Assembly: GCA_031284585.1 (NCBI GenBank)
Contig: JAITXT010000003.1
Span: 62,001-126,000 of the forward strand
Source of the DNA: Acholeplasmatales bacterium
GTDB taxonomy: Bacteria > Bacillota_I > Bacilli_A > Acholeplasmatales > Acholeplasmataceae
Length of the DNA: 64,000 nt
Direction of reading: 5' to 3'
Shown here: positions 45,388 through 53,831 of the stretch, piece after piece
Layout: each line of letters begins with the position of its first letter
Position numbering within the stretch: position 1 is the first letter of the stretch
Translations under genes and position numbers: made by a program
The notes under the pieces: generated by a model
Database searches by the model: none
Told to the model about the DNA's origin: nothing
The model's input: the letters and a program-made list of their open reading frames with translations, nothing else

Positions 45388-46683
45388 ATGATTGCAAAAA
45401 ACAAAAACATCCCTGATGGAAAACATGATTTAAAATTAATGGATACTCAAAATCTTTATGATTTAGAATATTTTTACTATCCTCTTACTACAGCTAGAAC
45501 TCCTAGTGGTGAATTTAGTGTCTCAATTGGTGATACTGTTTATGTAGGAGATATTCTTGGTACAAGAAAAGCAGCTTTTTTTGAGCAACCTTTTTACTCA
45601 ACTGTAAGTGGTAAAGTAATATCAATAGAAAAGCATTTAGATCAATTTTTAAAACCACATGATTGCTTGAAAGTTCAAAGTGATGGATTATTTACAAAAT
45701 CAAGTAAATTAGTTGAAAGAAGCGATGAAGAAATTAAAAAAATTCCTCGTAATGAATTAGTAGAATTAACTAAACAAATTGGATTAATTGGTCTTGGTGG
45801 TTCTGCTTTCCCTTCATACATAAAAATGCAGACTACTGATCAAGTAGATATAATAGTTGCTAACGGAGTTGAATGCGAACCATTATTAGTATCCGATTAT
45901 CTTTTAACAAAAGAAAATTATGAAGATTTATTTAAAGGTCTACTAATTGCGATTGAAGCTTGTGGTGCAAAGAAAGGTATTATTGCTATTAAAGAAAAAT
46001 ACCATGAATTATATGAATTATTAAATGAAAAAATAGAACCATATCGAAAATTGAATCTTGAAATTAAATTAGTAGGTAACTATTATCCACAAGGTTGGGA
46101 AGTTGAAACTATTAAGTCCTCAATTGGTATTAATGTTCCGCCAGGAGAATTAACATCTAAATATGGAGTTATAGATTATAACGTTACTACTTTAATTTAT
46201 TTATATCGTGGCATTAAATATGGTTTACCAGTTGAAGAGAGAATATTCTCTTTATCTGGAAATGCTATCACCAATAAACTATATAAAGTTAAGGTTGGTT
46301 CTCTTTTACAAGATATTATTGATAAAGATAATCCTATTTATTCTGATGAACAAGATAAATTATTAGTTTTAGGTGGTCCATTAATGGGAAATAACATAAA
46401 TACCTTCGATATCGTTGTTACTCCTACTATTACTAATTTAACTGTTAGTTACGCAGAAAAAATAATCGAAAATCCTTGTATAAGATGTGGATCTTGTGTG
46501 CTATCTTGTCCTGCATCGTTATCCCCTGTTCAAATTATGAACGCTTATAAGTCTAAGGATAAAGATGAATTAATTAAATTGAAAGTATCTAAATGCGTGG
46601 AATGTGGATTATGTTCATATGTTTGTACTTCAAAAATACACTTAACAGAAATAATACGTTCTGCTAAGAAATTTATAAGGTAA
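45388..46683 (+). CDS. rnfC: Rnf electron transport complex subunit C
   Basis: Peripheral NADH/FMN subunit of the ion-pumping ferredoxin:NAD oxidoreductase. The 431-residue protein has the GLGGSAFPSYIKM nucleotide-binding region, the ANGVECEPLL motif, SLBB-like middle part, and two C-terminal cluster motifs CIRCGSCVLSCP and CVECGLCSYVCT. AAAGGAAG precedes the ATG. It is the first Rnf gene, and gene order C-D-G-E-A-B is that of Firmicutes Rnf clusters. Confidence 0.95.
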   Translation: MIAKNKNIPDGKHDLKLMDTQNLYDLEYFYYPLTTARTPSGEFSVSIGDTVYVGDILGTRKAAFFEQPFYSTVSGKVISIEKHLDQFLKPHDCLKVQSDGLFTKSSKLVERSDEEIKKIPRNELVELTKQIGLIGLGGSAFPSYIKMQTTDQVDIIVANGVECEPLLVSDYLLTKENYEDLFKGLLIAIEACGAKKGIIAIKEKYHELYELLNEKIEPYRKLNLEIKLVGNYYPQGWEVETIKSSIGINVPPGELTSKYGVIDYNVTTLIYLYRGIKYGLPVEERIFSLSGNAITNKLYKVKVGSLLQDIIDKDNPIYSDEQDKLLVLGGPLMGNNINTFDIVVTPTITNLTVSYAEKIIENPCIRCGSCVLSCPASLSPVQIMNAYKSKDKDELIKLKVSKCVECGLCSYVCTSKIHLTEIIRSAKKFIR

Positions 46684-46696
46684 GGAGAATAATACT

Positions 46697-47779
46697 ATGG
46701 AATATGTAAAAAGAACTGCTCCTTTTATTAGAAAGAATGTTTCAGTAGAAAGAATGATGCGTGATGTACTAATTGCTTTGACACCTGTCACATTGTTTGC
46801 AATGGTTAGTTTTGGTCCAGATGCGATAATAAGAATTTTTCTATCTGTTTTTATTTGTATTGCTTCAGAAGTCATTGTATTTGGTTTAACACATAAACCT
46901 GAAGTATCGCTAGATACTAAAGGTAACTTGAAAAAGAGATACAAAACTTTTAATATTAATAACCTTATTACACCTGCAATAACTGGTTTAATATATTCTC
47001 TTTTATTACCAAGCACATTAAACTTATATGTTGTATGTGTTGGTGCTCTTGGAGCAATATTACTTGGTAAACTTGTTTTTGGTGGACTAGGCAATAACAT
47101 CTTTAATCCCGCAGCGATCGGTAGAGTTATTATATTAATATGTTTTGCATCATTTTTTACCTATAGTGCTAATGCTGATTTAATAACTTCTGCTACCCCT
47201 CTTGGTGCTCTAAATAACTTAGGATTAACTTCTGCAATCACAAGATTTACTTTAACTGATTTATTATTTGGAAATATTCCTGGAGCCATGGGAGAAATTA
47301 ATGCACTTGCCATTTTAGTGGGGGCTGCTTATTTATTAATAAGAAGAGCAGCTGATTACAAAATAGTAGTATCTGTACTTGGTACTTCAATTATTCTATT
47401 TTGTTTTGCAGGACTTGGTCTTGCAATAAATAATGTAATTGCCTACGATCAGATACTTATCTATGTATTATATCAAGTACTATCAGGCGGATTATTATTT
47501 GGTGCTGTATTTATGGCAACAGATCCTGTAACTTCACCTATTAATAAATATGGACGATATATTTACGGAGTTTTAATATCAATCTTAGTGGTAGCTATCC
47601 GTTTGTTTGGTGGTTTCCCTGAAGGAGTAGCTCTAGCTATAATATTTGCTAATATATTTGTTCCACTTATTGATTATTTCAAAATTACATATAAAAATCA
47701 TCCAAAAACCACTTATTACATATTAGGGTCCCTTATACTAGTATTTGGTGGAGTGATTTTATTATATATTGGGAGGTAA
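46697..47779 (+). CDS. rnfD: Rnf complex subunit D
   Basis: Polytopic membrane subunit carrying covalently bound FMN. The 360-residue protein has about nine helices, KRYKTFNINNLITPAITGL, FGGLGNNIFNPAAIGR, and GAVFMATDPVTSP, where the Thr of the AT pair is the expected flavinylation position. It would be modified by the ApbE protein encoded downstream. AAGGAG precedes the ATG. Confidence 0.95.
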   Translation: MEYVKRTAPFIRKNVSVERMMRDVLIALTPVTLFAMVSFGPDAIIRIFLSVFICIASEVIVFGLTHKPEVSLDTKGNLKKRYKTFNINNLITPAITGLIYSLLLPSTLNLYVVCVGALGAILLGKLVFGGLGNNIFNPAAIGRVIILICFASFFTYSANADLITSATPLGALNNLGLTSAITRFTLTDLLFGNIPGAMGEINALAILVGAAYLLIRRAADYKIVVSVLGTSIILFCFAGLGLAINNVIAYDQILIYVLYQVLSGGLLFGAVFMATDPVTSPINKYGRYIYGVLISILVVAIRLFGGFPEGVALAIIFANIFVPLIDYFKITYKNHPKTTYYILGSLILVFGGVILLYIGR

Positions 47780-47783
47780 TAAA

Positions 47784-48791
47784 ATGAATGAATTTTTTAA
47801 GAAAAATCCAATTGTTCATTATGCTATTGTTTTAGGTTTAGTTGCTTTGTTATGTGGACTAGTTGTAGGACTTATTAACTATATCACTGTTCCTGTTATT
47901 TCTGAAAATGCTCTAGCACGTAAAGAAAAAGCTTATCAAGAGATTCTTCCTGTTATTTATAAAGATGGTTCTTTAGAAGAAAATATTCTTGATCCTGTTG
48001 GTTCAGTGACACAAATCAATAAATATTTTGTTTCCGATGAAATATATTCTTATTTATATATTGCAAGTGGATCTAATAGTTATGGAAATATAGAAGTACT
48101 TATAGCTGTTGATCAAACAAACAAGATAATTGGAACTAAATACCTTACTTTAAATCAAACTCTTTTCGTTGATAAAACTGCTCTTTACTTAAATAATTTT
48201 GTTGGAACAACTGCAGATACTTTCCCTTCTATCTTAAATACTGGAGCATCCAGAAGTAAGAATTTAATTGATTCTTTAATTTTAAGTATTTGGGAAAATC
48301 ATACTAATGTTATTAGCAAATTAAATATTAAGCCTTATGATATCTATTTCGGAGTAAACTATGATCTAAAAGAAGCAATTCAATTTAGTTCAACTGTTGG
48401 ATATGATTTTAAAGGATGGACTGGTTCAAAAACTAAAAATATTACTGTTTCATATCGTGATGCATATGACGCTAATAATAATTACGCAGGAAGACTTTTT
48501 GATGTTTCTGGAGTAGGTGCTCATGAATCAGAAAGCGATACTGGGGAACTTACAGTCCAATTCATCTTTGATAAAAATGGTGTTTTAAAAAACTATTTAC
48601 CTATCAAAGTAAGTGAACATCAATTTTATGACACAGCAAGAGTATATTTAGATTCCTTTATCGGAAAAACTATTACTGAATTCACATTGAATGCGACAGA
48701 TAGTGATTTAGTAACTGGTTCCACAAGAACTAGTGCATTATTAAAATCATTTTTGTTTGCATTAATTGAAGTAAATGGAGGTATATTATAA
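47784..48791 (+). CDS. rnfG: RnfG-like subunit with two FMN-binding repeats (first copy)
   Basis: Membrane-anchored flavoprotein of the Rnf complex. Usual RnfG has one FMN_bind domain in about 200 residues. This one has 335: an N-terminal anchor (about 11-36), a first repeat (about 60-175) with TGASRS at 153-158, and a second (about 205-330) with GDTGELTVQF-like ESDTGELTV and the motif TGSTRTS at 311-317. The second motif, with Thr314, is the better ApbE target. The start ATG 47784 follows GGGAGG (47771-47776); a TTG inside the rnfD end is rejected. Confidence 0.82.
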   Translation: MNEFFKKNPIVHYAIVLGLVALLCGLVVGLINYITVPVISENALARKEKAYQEILPVIYKDGSLEENILDPVGSVTQINKYFVSDEIYSYLYIASGSNSYGNIEVLIAVDQTNKIIGTKYLTLNQTLFVDKTALYLNNFVGTTADTFPSILNTGASRSKNLIDSLILSIWENHTNVISKLNIKPYDIYFGVNYDLKEAIQFSSTVGYDFKGWTGSKTKNITVSYRDAYDANNNYAGRLFDVSGVGAHESESDTGELTVQFIFDKNGVLKNYLPIKVSEHQFYDTARVYLDSFIGKTITEFTLNATDSDLVTGSTRTSALLKSFLFALIEVNGGIL

Positions 48792-49738
48792 TGAAAAAAT
48801 TTCTAAAAACTAATTTAGTTTCACTAGTTAGTCTATTTTCAATCTTAATACTTTCTTTTGGGATCATACTACTTAGCAACTCGTTTAAAAGTAGTCCTGA
48901 AAAAGAGTTATTTGGTAAGGTTTATGAAGTAGTCACAACTAAGAAAGTTAATAAAACAAGTGATAGAGTTAAAATTAGCACTTTATCTACTATTAAAGTT
49001 GATTCTACTGATGGAAAAGTATATTCTGTTGAAGTAGAAAACACTTATGGAAAAATTGGGTTACTTGTTGGAATACTTAAAAATAGTAATGTTAGAAAAG
49101 ATGTTTTAAGTGTTTCACTAGTTGAAATTCAACAAGATTATTCTTTAGAAGGAGCATTATTTATTGATAAATATTTTAAGAATATTGAAAATCCAAGAGA
49201 TAATTATAAAAAGTTTCCAACACTTTTAGATAAAAACAATCTTTCCACAGATGCTACTGTAATTGGTAAAAACACAACTGCGTCAATAACTAATGCTATT
49301 CTAAAAGTTGTCTATTATGAATATAACATCGTTTTAGATCCTCTTATTGATATTTATGGAGAGGGTTACGTTAGAGAAACACCAACAACTTTAAGTCCTA
49401 CTATTACTAAAGAAGTTATTAGTAAAGAGGGAACTGTACTTGGATATATTTTAAATGTATCTGGAATAATTGTAACAAGAGATTCTGGTGAATTTAATCT
49501 AATAACTACTCTTTTATTTAATAGTGAAAATAAATTAGTTGGTCACTTATTCGAAAATGGATATGCTTCTGATGATTATTCAAAAGATGTTTATTCAGAT
49601 TTACTAAAAAGTTTATTAGGAAAAGATAGATCTGATTTATTAACTGGTCTTGATAATTCTCATCTTCTTTCAGGAGCGACTTTATCTAGTCCAAGCATCT
49701 ATGCTATCCTAGAAGATGCTTCAAATGTGGAGGTATAG
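48791..49738 (+). CDS. RnfG-like subunit (second copy)
   Basis: A second, diverged RnfG-like protein directly after the first (TAATG overlap). The 315 residues have an N-terminal anchor (about 8-30), a degenerate first repeat with IGKNTTAS near 158-165, and a C-terminal repeat with SGEFNLITTLLF and the flavinylation motif SGATLSS (Thr297, at 294-300). Both proteins share VSG(x) strand patterns (FDVSGVGAHESESDTGE and LNVSGIIVTRDSGE). A paralogue by local duplication is likely. Its place in the complex is unknown. Confidence 0.75.
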   Translation: MKKFLKTNLVSLVSLFSILILSFGIILLSNSFKSSPEKELFGKVYEVVTTKKVNKTSDRVKISTLSTIKVDSTDGKVYSVEVENTYGKIGLLVGILKNSNVRKDVLSVSLVEIQQDYSLEGALFIDKYFKNIENPRDNYKKFPTLLDKNNLSTDATVIGKNTTASITNAILKVVYYEYNIVLDPLIDIYGEGYVRETPTTLSPTITKEVISKEGTVLGYILNVSGIIVTRDSGEFNLITTLLFNSENKLVGHLFENGYASDDYSKDVYSDLLKSLLGKDRSDLLTGLDNSHLLSGATLSSPSIYAILEDASNVEV

Positions 49739-49743
49739 TAAAA

Positions 49744-50481
49744 ATGTCACATAATCACGGAAATAGTACTCAAGAAAATGAAACAGTTTCTTTAAAACAG
49801 ACTTTTTTGAAAGGATTATTTAAAGAAAACGGATTACTAGTAATGGTTCTTGGAATGTGTCCTTCTCTAGCGGTTACTTCAAGTTTTGAAGGAGCTTTAG
49901 GTATGGGTATTCTTGTAATGATAGTATTAACTGCAACTAATTCAACTATTAGTTTAATTAGACATTTAATTCCTAATACAATTAGAATCCCAGTTTTTGT
50001 ACTTGTTATCGCTACCGAAGTTACAGTTATGCAAATGCTTGTAAATGCTTTTGCTTATGACTTATCAGTAACTTTAGGAGTATTTATATCTTTAATTACT
50101 GTAAATTGTATCGTATTTGGAAGAGCTGAAGCTTATGCTTCTAAAAACAAAGTTTTAAATTCTGCTCTTGATGGACTTGGATGCGCTATAGGATATGGAA
50201 TTGCTTTAATAGGTGTTGGTTTCATTAGAGAAGTATTTGGAACTTTTTCTCTAACTTTTGGTGCTAAACTTCCTCTTGGAATAGATCCTATCACTATTCA
50301 ATTTTTACCGAAAGAATATGCTCTTTCTTTTTTAATTAATCCTCCAGGAGCGTTTTTAGTTTTAGGTCTTATCTTAGCAGTTATTTCTGCAATAAGTAAT
50401 CATAAAAAACAGAAGAAGATTGATTCAAAAGTTCTTGAAGCTTTGAAAAAGAAACAAGAATTAGCAGGAGGTATTAAATAA
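49744..50481 (+). CDS. rnfE: Rnf complex subunit E
   Basis: Integral membrane subunit, homologous to RnfA, forming the membrane [2Fe-2S] site with it. The 245-residue protein has about six helices; ENGLLVMVLGMCPSLAVTSS contains the conserved Cys, and VTVNCIVFGRAEAYASKN the second. GGAGG stands 13 bases before the ATG. Typical length is about 200, so the N- and C-terminal tails (with NHGNSTQENE) are slightly extended. Confidence 0.95.
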   Translation: MSHNHGNSTQENETVSLKQTFLKGLFKENGLLVMVLGMCPSLAVTSSFEGALGMGILVMIVLTATNSTISLIRHLIPNTIRIPVFVLVIATEVTVMQMLVNAFAYDLSVTLGVFISLITVNCIVFGRAEAYASKNKVLNSALDGLGCAIGYGIALIGVGFIREVFGTFSLTFGAKLPLGIDPITIQFLPKEYALSFLINPPGAFLVLGLILAVISAISNHKKQKKIDSKVLEALKKKQELAGGIK

Positions 50482-51059
50482 TGGAATACTTAGGAATATT
50501 AATTGGTGCAATCCTTGTAAACAATGTAATTTTAATGCAATTTTTGGGTTTATGCTCTTTCTTCGGTGTATCAGATAAGATGAAGAGTGTTACTGGAATG
50601 AGTTTAGCAGTAATTGCTGTTATCTTTTTCTCGGTTGTTGTTACTTATCCTATTTATGTTTTTATTCTTCTTCCTTTAAAAATTGGGTATCTAGATACAA
50701 TTGTTTTTGCTTTAGTAATTGCTGCAATCGTTCAATTGACTGAATTAACTGTTAAAAAGTTATCAAAAAGTCTTTATCGTTCACTTGGTATCTACCTTCC
50801 TTTAATTGCTACAAATTGTGCTGTTTTAGGAGTTACACTTACTTTAGTTCATTCTAATCCAATACCAAACTACTTAGAAGCAATAACTTTAGGTATCGGT
50901 ACTGCTTTAGGATATGCTTTAGTCATTATTGCTTTTACAGCTATTAAATTAAAGTTAAATTCAAATGATGTTCCCAAGGCATTTAAAGGACTTCCAATAG
51001 CTTTTGTTACTACAGCGTTAATGGCACTAGCATTTATGGGTTTAAGTGGTTTATTATGA
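50481..51059 (+). CDS. rnfA: Rnf complex subunit A
   Basis: Integral membrane subunit of 192 residues, six helices. Conserved features: NNVILMQFLGLCSFFGVS (first Cys) and YLPLIATNCAVLG (second Cys), the pair that ligates the cluster with RnfE. Its start overlaps the rnfE stop (TAATG) and its stop TGA overlaps the next ATG. Confidence 0.96.
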   Translation: MEYLGILIGAILVNNVILMQFLGLCSFFGVSDKMKSVTGMSLAVIAVIFFSVVVTYPIYVFILLPLKIGYLDTIVFALVIAAIVQLTELTVKKLSKSLYRSLGIYLPLIATNCAVLGVTLTLVHSNPIPNYLEAITLGIGTALGYALVIIAFTAIKLKLNSNDVPKAFKGLPIAFVTTALMALAFMGLSGLL

Positions 51060-51244
51060 TCCTAAGAATATTAATAGCTTTTTTAGTTATTTTTGCTTTA
51101 CTAAGCATCTACCTTGTCGCTTATATTTTAAATAAGAAATCTGATACGGAAGAGGATTTAATAGCTAAACAGGCAGCAAGAAATTGTTCTATTTGTATTA
51201 CGAGTGGAAAAATATGTTTTGGAAAGGAGAATGAGGAAAAATGA
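51056..51244 (+). CDS. Small Cys-containing membrane protein inside the rnf operon
   Basis: A 62-residue protein between RnfA and RnfB that I do not know as a standard Rnf subunit. It has one N-terminal helix (about 3-25), a short charged linker, and Cys44, Cys47 and Cys54 in CSICITSGKIC, then a charged tail. Its ends overlap rnfA and rnfB by 4 bases each, so it is made together with them. The layout (TM plus Cys cluster, next to A/E-type subunits) recalls NqrM, the factor that helps insert iron into the NqrD/NqrE site of the related Na-NQR; this is an analogy only. Confidence 0.65.
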   Translation: MILRILIAFLVIFALLSIYLVAYILNKKSDTEEDLIAKQAARNCSICITSGKICFGKENEEK

Positions 51245-51561
51245 CAGAAATTTTATTCCCGGTTTTGGTTTTACTTGGTATAGGAGCACTACTTGGTGCA
51301 TTACTTGCCTTAGCAAATAAATTATTAGAAGTTAAAGAAGATGAAAGAATAGGTGAAATTGCTAAACTTTTACCAAATTATAACTGTGGTTCTTGTGGTA
51401 CACCAGGTTGTGTTGCCTTTGCTACTGCGATCATCGAAGGTGAAGTTAAGAATTTATCAAGATGTAAACCAGGTAAGGCAGATAAGAATTTTAATCCTAT
51501 TATTGAATATCTTAAAGCACATCCAGATGCAAATAATAAAGTAATAGATGTCAAAATTTAA
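51241..51561 (+). CDS. rnfB: Minimal RnfB: membrane anchor plus one [4Fe-4S] motif
   Basis: RnfB receives electrons from ferredoxin. This protein has 106 residues, against about 190-330 in usual RnfB. Present: an N-terminal helix (5-27) and the Cys motif Cys49, Cys52, Cys57, Cys75 (NCGSCGTPGC...RC), typical of the RnfB 4Fe-4S domain. Absent: the C-terminal ferredoxin domains with their CxxCxxCxxxCP repeats. The stop is a clean TAA and the next gene begins 14 bases before it, so this is not an obvious frameshift. Confidence 0.85.
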   Translation: MTEILFPVLVLLGIGALLGALLALANKLLEVKEDERIGEIAKLLPNYNCGSCGTPGCVAFATAIIEGEVKNLSRCKPGKADKNFNPIIEYLKAHPDANNKVIDVKI

Positions 51562-52864
51562 AATTAAAGTAATCAAGATTCTTATGACAGTATTGTTATC
51601 TGGAATCTTGTTTTCAAATAACATAAAATTTATTTATGCGGAAGAAATAGAACCCTTAAGTACTGAAAGGTTATACATAAACTTTGTTTTTAATTCGTAC
51701 ATTGATATTGAATTTAAAGCCAAAAGTGAAAATGTAACATCAATTAAAAGTGAAATTACCAGTATAGTTCAATTACTAAATGCTTTAACCGATAATTTTA
51801 ATACAACGATTAGTCCTTACGAAGAATATGCTAATGTTTTTGATATAAATAACTCTTTTTCTGATGTTTTAATAGACGATATTTTATTTGATATTTTTAC
51901 ATTAGCCTCAGAAATAAATATTTATACAAATGAATATTATAATATTGGAATTGGAAAGATTATCGATAATTACAAGAATCTAATTGCAAATAGATTTCAA
52001 TACGAGATTAATGACTCAGAATATCAAAATGCCAAGCAAAAATCTCTAGAAGTAGATATTACAGAAACAAAGTACGTACTATTTGAAGAAGATAATAAAA
52101 AATACATTTCACTCAAAAGTGATACCTTACTTGATTTAGGGTCGATTGCTAAAGGATATGCAGTAGATGAAATTAAAAAAATTTTAAGTAAATACGAAGT
52201 AACCGATTATTTTATCGATGGTGGTAGTTCTTCTATGGCAATAGGTAATTATACCAGAACTGAAAATGGATATGCTTCCCTTGGTCTTTCTAGCCCTTAC
52301 TTATTTAATAAAAATTATAAAAATTATCCACAAATTGCTGAATATGCTAATATAACGATTAGAAATAAATCTATAGCTACTTCCAATTATGGTCAACAAT
52401 ATGGTTATTATAAAAATAATATCGTAAGTCACATCATTTCTCCAAAGACAAAAGAACCTGTAAACAATATGCAGTCGGTCACTCTTATTGGTGATGATGC
52501 CTGCTTACTTGATGCATTTTCGACAGCTATTTACACCATGACTTTAGAAGAGGCATTAGTATTTTCTAAAAAAATATTACAAGATTACAATATCGAGACT
52601 CTTATTTTAGATAATAATTTAAGAGTACATCATGAATTTAGTAGCGATTCTAACTATAATTTGGTAGTAAATGTTACAGAAATTTCTGAAAACCAATTTT
52701 CTAATTGGTTTAAAAATAATTTCTTTTACATTATTATCGTGGTTATTATTATAGTGATGATTTGTTTATATTTGAAAGATTTCTTTAAATCAAGAAAATC
52801 AAAAAGTATAGTTTCTAATAATGATGATGATAATGAATCTGAAACACCTGGAGAAGATATTTAG
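51548..52864 (+). CDS. apbE: FAD:protein FMN transferase with a C-terminal membrane anchor
   Basis: Attaches FMN covalently to Thr/Ser of RnfD and RnfG. The 438-residue protein has a signal peptide (cleavage after about IYA), then ApbE motifs DLGSIAKGYAVDE (FAD binding), DYFIDGGSSS, HIISPKT, and CLLDAFSTA (Mg site). After the catalytic domain, a helix of about 20 residues near 390-410 anchors it, followed by a polar tail. Most ApbE are lipoproteins without a C-terminal helix. Start ATG 51548 overlaps rnfB; the Shine-Dalgarno is poor, consistent with coupling. Confidence 0.9.
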   Translation: MSKFKIKVIKILMTVLLSGILFSNNIKFIYAEEIEPLSTERLYINFVFNSYIDIEFKAKSENVTSIKSEITSIVQLLNALTDNFNTTISPYEEYANVFDINNSFSDVLIDDILFDIFTLASEINIYTNEYYNIGIGKIIDNYKNLIANRFQYEINDSEYQNAKQKSLEVDITETKYVLFEEDNKKYISLKSDTLLDLGSIAKGYAVDEIKKILSKYEVTDYFIDGGSSSMAIGNYTRTENGYASLGLSSPYLFNKNYKNYPQIAEYANITIRNKSIATSNYGQQYGYYKNNIVSHIISPKTKEPVNNMQSVTLIGDDACLLDAFSTAIYTMTLEEALVFSKKILQDYNIETLILDNNLRVHHEFSSDSNYNLVVNVTEISENQFSNWFKNNFFYIIIVVIIIVMICLYLKDFFKSRKSKSIVSNNDDDNESETPGEDI

Positions 52865-53301
52865 TGAAAAAGAAAGATGCGATTTTTTTAGTTGCGGTCT
52901 CAGTTATAATAATTACAATTTTTAGTATTTTTTTATTAGTAAATAAAAATACTAAACACGATTTTGCTTATATATATGTCGGATATGGTGATAATTTAGT
53001 TGGAACAGTAGACTTTAAAAACCAAAAAATAATTATTAATAAAGTTGATTCAGATAATTATCCTAAAATAATCGATGATAATAAAATTATTGTCTTGTCT
53101 TTTATAGAAATTGATGCACACAAAGAAGAACTTGAAATTAAAATTGACTTTGAGAAAAGAAGTGTTAAAGTCATAAAAAGTAGTTGTAAAGACCAGATAT
53201 GTGTTCTTCAAGGTGAAGTAACAACAGGTGTGATTATCTGTGCTCCTGGACGTGTAAGAATAGATTTCGAGTTAAGAGATCAAAGTGATATAGTAATATG
53301 A
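52864..53301 (+). CDS. NusG domain II-like membrane protein
   Basis: 145 residues: an N-terminal helix (about 6-27) and an extracytoplasmic beta-rich domain ending with SSCKDQICVLQGEV and GVIICAPGRVRIDFE. The Cys pair and CxPxxxxI pattern match the NusG-II-domain proteins found beside Gx transporters and FMN-related genes in Firmicutes. The start is GTG, overlapping the apbE TAG by 1 base, with GGAG well placed upstream. A role in flavin or quinone redox chemistry is only inferred. Confidence 0.75.
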   Translation: MKKKDAIFLVAVSVIIITIFSIFLLVNKNTKHDFAYIYVGYGDNLVGTVDFKNQKIIINKVDSDNYPKIIDDNKIIVLSFIEIDAHKEELEIKIDFEKRSVKVIKSSCKDQICVLQGEVTTGVIICAPGRVRIDFELRDQSDIVI

Positions 53302-53831
53302 ATAAGAAATTAAAAAGATATTTAATACTTGCAAACTTACTGGCACTTGCAGTAATATTAAATATCATAGAATCATTTATAATTATTCCGCTCCCAATTC
53401 CTAATGCAAAAATAGGACTATCTAATATAGTGACTATAATTGTCATATATTTATTTTCTTGTAGAGAAGGATTTTTACTTGCTTTCACAAGAGTATTATT
53501 AGCTACTTTTTTATCTGGAAGATATGGACAATTTGCGATGAGTTTTACAGGTACAATGTTATCTACTATTATCATGATCATAGTTTATAAATTGAAATTC
53601 TTTTCAATCATTCCTATAAGTATTATTGGTTCAATCTTTCATTCAGTAGGCCAAATATTAGGTGCTGCAATTTTTGTTGTAGGATCTAGCCTTGCCTTCT
53701 ATTATCTTCCAATTATGCTGCTAGTATCATTACCTGCTGGATTAATTACTGGGATAATAGCAAATAAATTCATTAAAATTTATCAAATTAAAAATAAAGT
53801 TATTACTTTAGAAGATGATAAAGTAAATTAA
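53298..53831 (+). CDS. Gx transporter family membrane protein
   Basis: A 177-residue protein with about five membrane helices; LPIPNAKIGLSNIVTIIVIYLF and FLSGRYGQFAMSFTG fit the family once named heptaprenyl diphosphate synthase component I, which now looks like an ECF-like S component. It travels with NusG-II proteins. Its substrate is not established; an Rnf-associated cofactor is a guess. Overlap of 4 bases with the preceding gene; last gene of the operon. Confidence 0.8.
   Translation: MNKKLKRYLILANLLALAVILNIIESFIIIPLPIPNAKIGLSNIVTIIVIYLFSCREGFLLAFTRVLLATFLSGRYGQFAMSFTGTMLSTIIMIIVYKLKFFSIIPISIIGSIFHSVGQILGAAIFVVGSSLAFYYLPIMLLVSLPAGLITGIIANKFIKIYQIKNKVITLEDDKVN

Follow-up and report, generated by a model that had tools for sequence, protein, structure and literature searches.

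Paired two-domain RnfG-type proteins in an Rnf variant of the Acholeplasma family and their possible role in electron export

The Rnf operon in the window (the 64,000-nucleotide stretch of DNA analysed here) encodes two RnfG-type proteins, G1 and G2, and the evidence supports the presence of four FMN_bind-type domains across the pair. Such pairs are common in the Acholeplasma family, and multi-domain RnfG persists in relatives that have lost the ferredoxin half of the complex. As far as could be found in open-access papers, neither the conserved pair of two-domain proteins (2+2) nor a multi-domain RnfG outlasting the ferredoxin half has been described before. Outer flavin domains that persist in this way provide a natural test of electron export by Rnf, in bacteria presumed to be simple fermenters.

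Operon and host genome

The genome to which the window belongs falls within the Acholeplasma group and is represented by an assembly of 1.23 Mb (77% complete). The gene set rnfC, D, G, E, A and B is present together, in the order rnfC, rnfD, G1, G2, rnfE, rnfA, short rnfB, apbE, NusG_II protein and PF07456 protein:

45388..46680, + strand: rnfC, 431 aa, NADH-side subunit with two 4Fe-4S sites (TIGR01945, 277.9 bits, above cut-off)
46697..47776, + strand: rnfD, 360 aa, membrane subunit (TIGR01946 above cut-off; PF03116)
47784..48788, + strand: G1, RnfG of 335 aa with one anchor and two FMN_bind-type domains (TIGR01947 rnfG, 39.8 bits against a cut-off of 102)
48791..49735 (stop ends 49738), + strand: G2, RnfG-like protein of 315 aa with one anchor and two FMN_bind-type domains (no library family match)
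49744..50478, + strand: rnfE, 245 aa (PF02508; NF009070 above cut-off)
50481..51056, + strand: rnfA, 192 aa (PF02508; TIGR01943 best match)
51241..51558, + strand: short rnfB, 106 aa, anchor and one 4Fe-4S (PF04060), without the C-terminal ferredoxin domain
51548..52861, + strand: apbE, FMN transferase of 438 aa (PF02424, 4.8e-37)
52864..53298, + strand: NusG_II domain protein (PF07009), which we take by its position to be EetA-like
53298..53828, + strand: PF07456 protein of the EetB family (PF07456, 1.8e-36)

RnfC contains all eight Fe-S cysteines, and the ligands of the intramembrane RnfA/RnfE [2Fe-2S] cluster are kept as Cys39 and Cys122 of RnfE and Cys25 and Cys113 of RnfA. Pyruvate:ferredoxin oxidoreductase (PFOR) is encoded in the same genome. 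A second PF04060 FeS match lies elsewhere in the assembly (G000:C23:17230-17319), within a 569 aa frame.

Domain structure of G1 and G2

G1 and G2 are adjacent open reading frames between rnfD and rnfE with one N-terminal hydrophobic stretch each, in agreement with the first-pass annotation, which had assigned both proteins a single N-terminal anchor and two FMN-binding repeats. The second of these claims is upheld by an RnfG HMM, profile-profile comparison, predicted secondary structure and conserved ApbE motifs. The HMM was built from 67 single-domain RnfGs of other loci, and its E-values refer to a small sequence set; on this scale it matches G1 twice (iE 2e-25 in the first half, 0.0016 in the second); in G2 the first half scores 9e-6 and the other half, taken alone, just 1.3. 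Two or more domains are found by this HMM in nearly all long relatives. Within the window only the pairs formed by the two G1 domains (z 7.1) and by the second domains of G1 and G2 (z 3.5) stand out in pairwise shuffling, and family profiles were used for this reason. Compared with single-domain RnfG by hhalign, the four domain classes of the family gave probabilities of 99.8, 98.0, 98.3 and 98.3%, against less than 1% for the controls ApbE, RnfC and NusG_II.

AlphaFold models of G1 and G2, of low-to-medium confidence (pLDDT 69 and 71, 10 sequences each), show strands and helices following one another in the same order in each of the four halves; the motif lies where the last helix begins or immediately ahead of it. 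The helix formed by anchor and linker is long in G1 (9-54), as in RnfG, and not in G2 (2-31). In whole-chain Foldseek searches of the PDB the best fold match of G1 is RnfG (7zc6_G, E 1e-4); the RnfG match of G2 is weak (9eri_G, rank 9, E 0.08) and was not taken as proof. A PDB profile search likewise led from G1 to RnfG and gave no match with G2.

The Pfam FMN_bind model (PF04205) placed neither protein above its cut-off (G1 14.8 bits against 22, G2 no match), nor did G1 reach the curated cut-off of TIGR01947, a model that G2 did not match at all. Used alone, Pfam and NCBIfam were rejected as too weak for proteins so divergent, and homology to FMN_bind is based on the profiles built in this analysis rather than on library models. 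By position, fold and profile G1 is RnfG, and G2 is an RnfG-related protein. A G1-profile search of the assembly, at its 77% completeness, revealed no RnfG-like protein besides these two.

Flavinylation sites

ApbE recognizes the motif D-x-x-[ST]-G-A-[ST], in which Thr is preferred over Ser as the acceptor residue; replacing Asp by Ala had a minor effect in a fumarate reductase, and Gly to Ala or Ala to Val left about half of the flavinylation (PMC12052999). Four candidate sites are present in the window:

48231..48251, + strand: G1 site 1, ILNTGAS, residues 150-156, putative acceptor Ser156; Asp replaced by Ile
48705..48725, + strand: G1 site 2, DLVTGST, residues 308-314, putative acceptor Thr314; best preserved of the four
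49238..49258, + strand: G2 site 1, NLSTDAT, residues 150-156, putative acceptor Thr156; Asp and Gly lost
49661..49681, + strand: G2 site 2, HLLSGAT, residues 291-297, putative acceptor Thr297; Asp replaced by His

The motifs first noticed in G1 (TGASRS at 153-158, TGSTRT from 311) and at the end of G2 (SGATLSS, 294-300) fall at these positions. IGKNTTAS (158-165), first read as a degenerate site of G2, is out of register and lies within the helix that follows the aligned site; alignment rules it out and gives NLSTDAT as the true register.

Three of the four sites depart from the consensus, and only DLVTGST keeps both Asp and Gly. In relatives the acceptor Ser/Thr is retained at sites 1 to 4 in 35/36, 26/36, 31/31 and 30/31 sequences and the Gly in 33/36, 27/36, 31/31 and 29/31; every one of the 31 relatives has Gly where G2 of the window has Asp154. 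Four sites thus appear to be a trait of the family, and the suggestion of up to four FMN groups fits at that level, where acceptors are conserved at all of them. It is doubtful for this genome, in which perhaps two or three sites work, since sites 1, 3 and 4 deviate from the motif. Covalently bound FMN on G1 and G2 would form the "longer flavin wire" proposed at the outset. Apart from the ApbE of the operon, none was found in the assembly (77% complete). RnfD (46697-47776) has a flavinylation-like site, DLITSAT, with Ser for Gly; together with NLSTDAT of G2 it may reflect a relaxed ApbE preference in this lineage.

Distribution across the order

Relatives were surveyed through the stretch between rnfD and rnfE, domains being counted mainly by length. 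Among 37 readable operons of the Acholeplasma family, the window included, 25 have the exact 2+2 pair (one of them with an Ig-like insertion). The other forms are 2+1 (four operons), 1+2 (two), 2+3 (one) and 2+4 (one), and single proteins with three domains (three) or one domain (one); in 36 of the 37 there are at least three FMN_bind-type domains. Pfam FMN_bind detects 9 of 10 G1 members, and of the G2 members 1 of 10 at E 0.1 or better.

In a second family of the order the arrangements are 2+2, 3+2 or 1+3, or a lone three-domain protein. RnfGs of a third family have one domain, except that those of one genus are giant. The giant RnfGs (L133, L138, L142, L143) are 1353-1434 aa long, with 8-10 stretches marked by the RnfG HMM. 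A G2 homologue of 411 aa (L036:4681-5913) has its two FMN domains separated by an insertion; matches to bacterial Ig-like families were seen in one G2 member, presumably this protein. Outside the Acholeplasma group, a clostridial MAG (L107) encodes a two-domain RnfG of 314 aa between rnfD and rnfE.

Short RnfB and loss of the ferredoxin half

RnfB of this order has about 95-133 aa and 4-6 cysteines, against about 260-300 aa and about 25 cysteines in Clostridia; RnfBs of known structure contain 2-7 additional clusters (PMC12174285). The RnfB of the window has four cysteines, and because it is without the C-terminal 4Fe-4S domain that accepts electrons from ferredoxin the complex was filed as an Rnf variant, not as a standard Rnf. 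Reduction of RnfB to an anchor and one 4Fe-4S is seen in the window and in most rnfB-bearing loci among L031-L047 and L111-L149, that is, order-wide and in some other Bacilli MAGs.

In 12 loci (L112, L116, L118, L119, L121, L122, L123 and L125-L129) rnfB is absent from the operon, and each of these loci has other residues in place of all four cysteines that bind the RnfA/RnfE [2Fe-2S] cluster; none of the four is lost in the 15 RnfB-bearing sequences used for comparison. Having neither RnfB nor the cluster, these relatives cannot pass electrons from ferredoxin to RnfG by the canonical path. They retain rnfC, rnfD, multi-domain rnfG and, where the stretch reaches far enough, apbE. The eight Fe-S cysteines of RnfC are kept in all 12, and the ATxL flavin site of RnfD is found in 10; the search pattern missed the site in the other two, as it did in several RnfB-bearing relatives. 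None of the 12 genomes, three of which are single-contig assemblies, gave a match to PF04060 or PFOR, and the same is true of G054, an Rnf-bearing genome outside the loci read. Where an Rnf-bearing genome has PF04060, PFOR is nearly always present as well; G090 (64% complete) was noted as an exception. Two changes account for the rnfB-less set on a tree of RnfC and RnfD, a single one being also compatible, and the set therefore represents one or two events, not twelve. A search of open-access papers for Rnf with a short RnfB or none found nothing.

Proposed electron route

Rnf is usually regarded as a closed ferredoxin/NAD+ loop. The sequences give directly the domain content, the conserved sites, the operon and the loss of the ferredoxin half in relatives with multi-domain RnfG; from these we infer FMN attachment, an electron route and an external acceptor. 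Domain 1 of G1 would do the work of a usual RnfG and shuttle electrons between the [2Fe-2S] cluster of RnfA/RnfE and the flavin of RnfD, while domain 2 of G1 and both domains of G2 would be added outer FMN carriers that let electrons out to an acceptor beyond the membrane. Rnf would then have a double role: besides working as a ferredoxin/NAD+ device, it would give electrons from NADH (or ferredoxin) a way to the outside. ApbE would attach the FMN and the PF07456 protein would probably supply FAD. We hold the chances for and against this proposal as a whole to be about even.

Electron export to the outside of the cell is suggested by the survival of multi-domain RnfG in some relatives after the loss of the ferredoxin side. 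The simplest reading of these rnfB-less operons would be a flow from NADH to RnfC, RnfD, the outer flavins and away. Also counted in favour were the four FMN_bind-type domains, the ApbE motif conserved in relatives at all four sites, the long anchor-linker helix of G1 that G2 does not share, and the location of both apbE and the PF07456 gene within the operon. In the window, where a short RnfB and all four cysteines are kept, the outer flavin domains would probably serve as a side exit. Counted against export are that three of the four sites of the window depart from the motif, that no extracytosolic acceptor was identified, that the window, with its RnfB and all cluster cysteines, may itself use the ordinary route, and that the loss of RnfB may be a single event, so that the relatives amount to one or two natural experiments. 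Acholeplasma-type cells are, moreover, thought to be without a wall, so that electrons need not cross a long distance. More tentatively, and with rather less than even confidence, part of the family may possess an Rnf half-complex without RnfB and the cluster, in which electrons from NADH would enter at RnfC and travel by way of RnfD to the multi-flavin RnfG and an external acceptor, the window having both routes. If true, bacteria without a wall would here possess a type of extracellular respiration.

It is also conceivable, though unlikely, that the extra domains act as an internal relay between RnfA/RnfE and RnfD in the normal ferredoxin:NAD+ reaction, no electrons leaving the complex. The ferredoxin side preserved in the window and the PFOR of its genome are in keeping with such a relay; however, a one-domain RnfG is enough in most other Rnf, and 12 relatives without RnfB and the [2Fe-2S] cysteines still hold multi-domain RnfGs. 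This pattern of loss favours NADH-linked transfer to an extracellular acceptor over a relay.

Somewhat less likely still is that FMN is carried by only one or two sites, the remaining domains having a structural or docking function that preserves the shape of the complex. The off-motif sites 1, 3 and 4 of the window would fit this explanation, particularly site 3 with Asp at an otherwise invariant Gly, but acceptor and Gly are conserved family-wide at all four sites and a fumarate reductase was only slightly affected in its flavinylation when Asp was replaced by Ala (PMC12052999). A redox buffer or oxygen-scavenging surface with no dedicated acceptor is very unlikely: O2 can serve as acceptor for a reduced multi-FMN protein (PMC10339131) and no partner reductase was seen, but this alone does not explain a conserved second membrane-anchored protein.

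Relation to known systems

Homologues already known as a normal Rnf arrangement would have told against the first-pass annotation, and this is half the case. Multi-flavinylated RnfGs have been reported as a class, along with clusters containing several multi-flavinylated proteins, and a second electron pathway was proposed for multi-flavinylated RNF (Meheust et al. 2021, PMC8238504); in that survey a cluster counted as RNF if RnfB was present. Like G1 and G2, the RnfGs reported there belong to RNF clusters and have more than one domain that binds FMN; they differ from the present case, where a fixed two-domain pair, not found described, extends across one family, most G2 proteins are invisible to Pfam FMN_bind and some loci have no RnfB. 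Surveys relying on Pfam FMN_bind or RnfB therefore overlook part of RnfG and Rnf diversity.

Extracellular electron transfer in Listeria uses Ndh2 and a quinone and is not known to involve Rnf. The flavin-based system of that organism (PplA, FmnB, EetB) is similar in having an ApbE-type enzyme and a PF07456 FAD exporter that serve an extracellular flavoprotein, EetB being the FAD-export subunit (PMC9973259). For the Nqr/Rnf-like two-subunit complexes, too, electrons have been proposed to move in one direction only, from NAD(P)H to an extracytosolic FMN, but their RnfD-like subunit is fused to a NAD-binding domain (PMC11334425), whereas RnfC, D, E and A are separate here. Canonical RnfG (Clostridium tetanomorphum, 7zc6; Acetobacterium woodii, 9eri) matches domain 1 of G1 in its anchor, linker helix and FMN_bind domain and, unlike G1 and G2, is a single protein with a single domain.

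Copying of C-terminal domains

Copying of domain 2 between G1 and G2 can be ruled out for the window, where the two are 25% identical. In L117, L132, L135 and L137 the C-terminal domains of G1 and G2 from the same genome show 99, 91, 78 and 73% identity, against 19-29% for the N-terminal domains. In any single MAG, near-identical C-terminal domains may be an assembly artefact; across the four loci the pattern looks like repeated gene-to-gene copying, or concerted evolution. At the DNA level the two genes are 99.1% identical across 450 bp in L117; in L132 the figure is 94.6% for a stretch of 409 bp.
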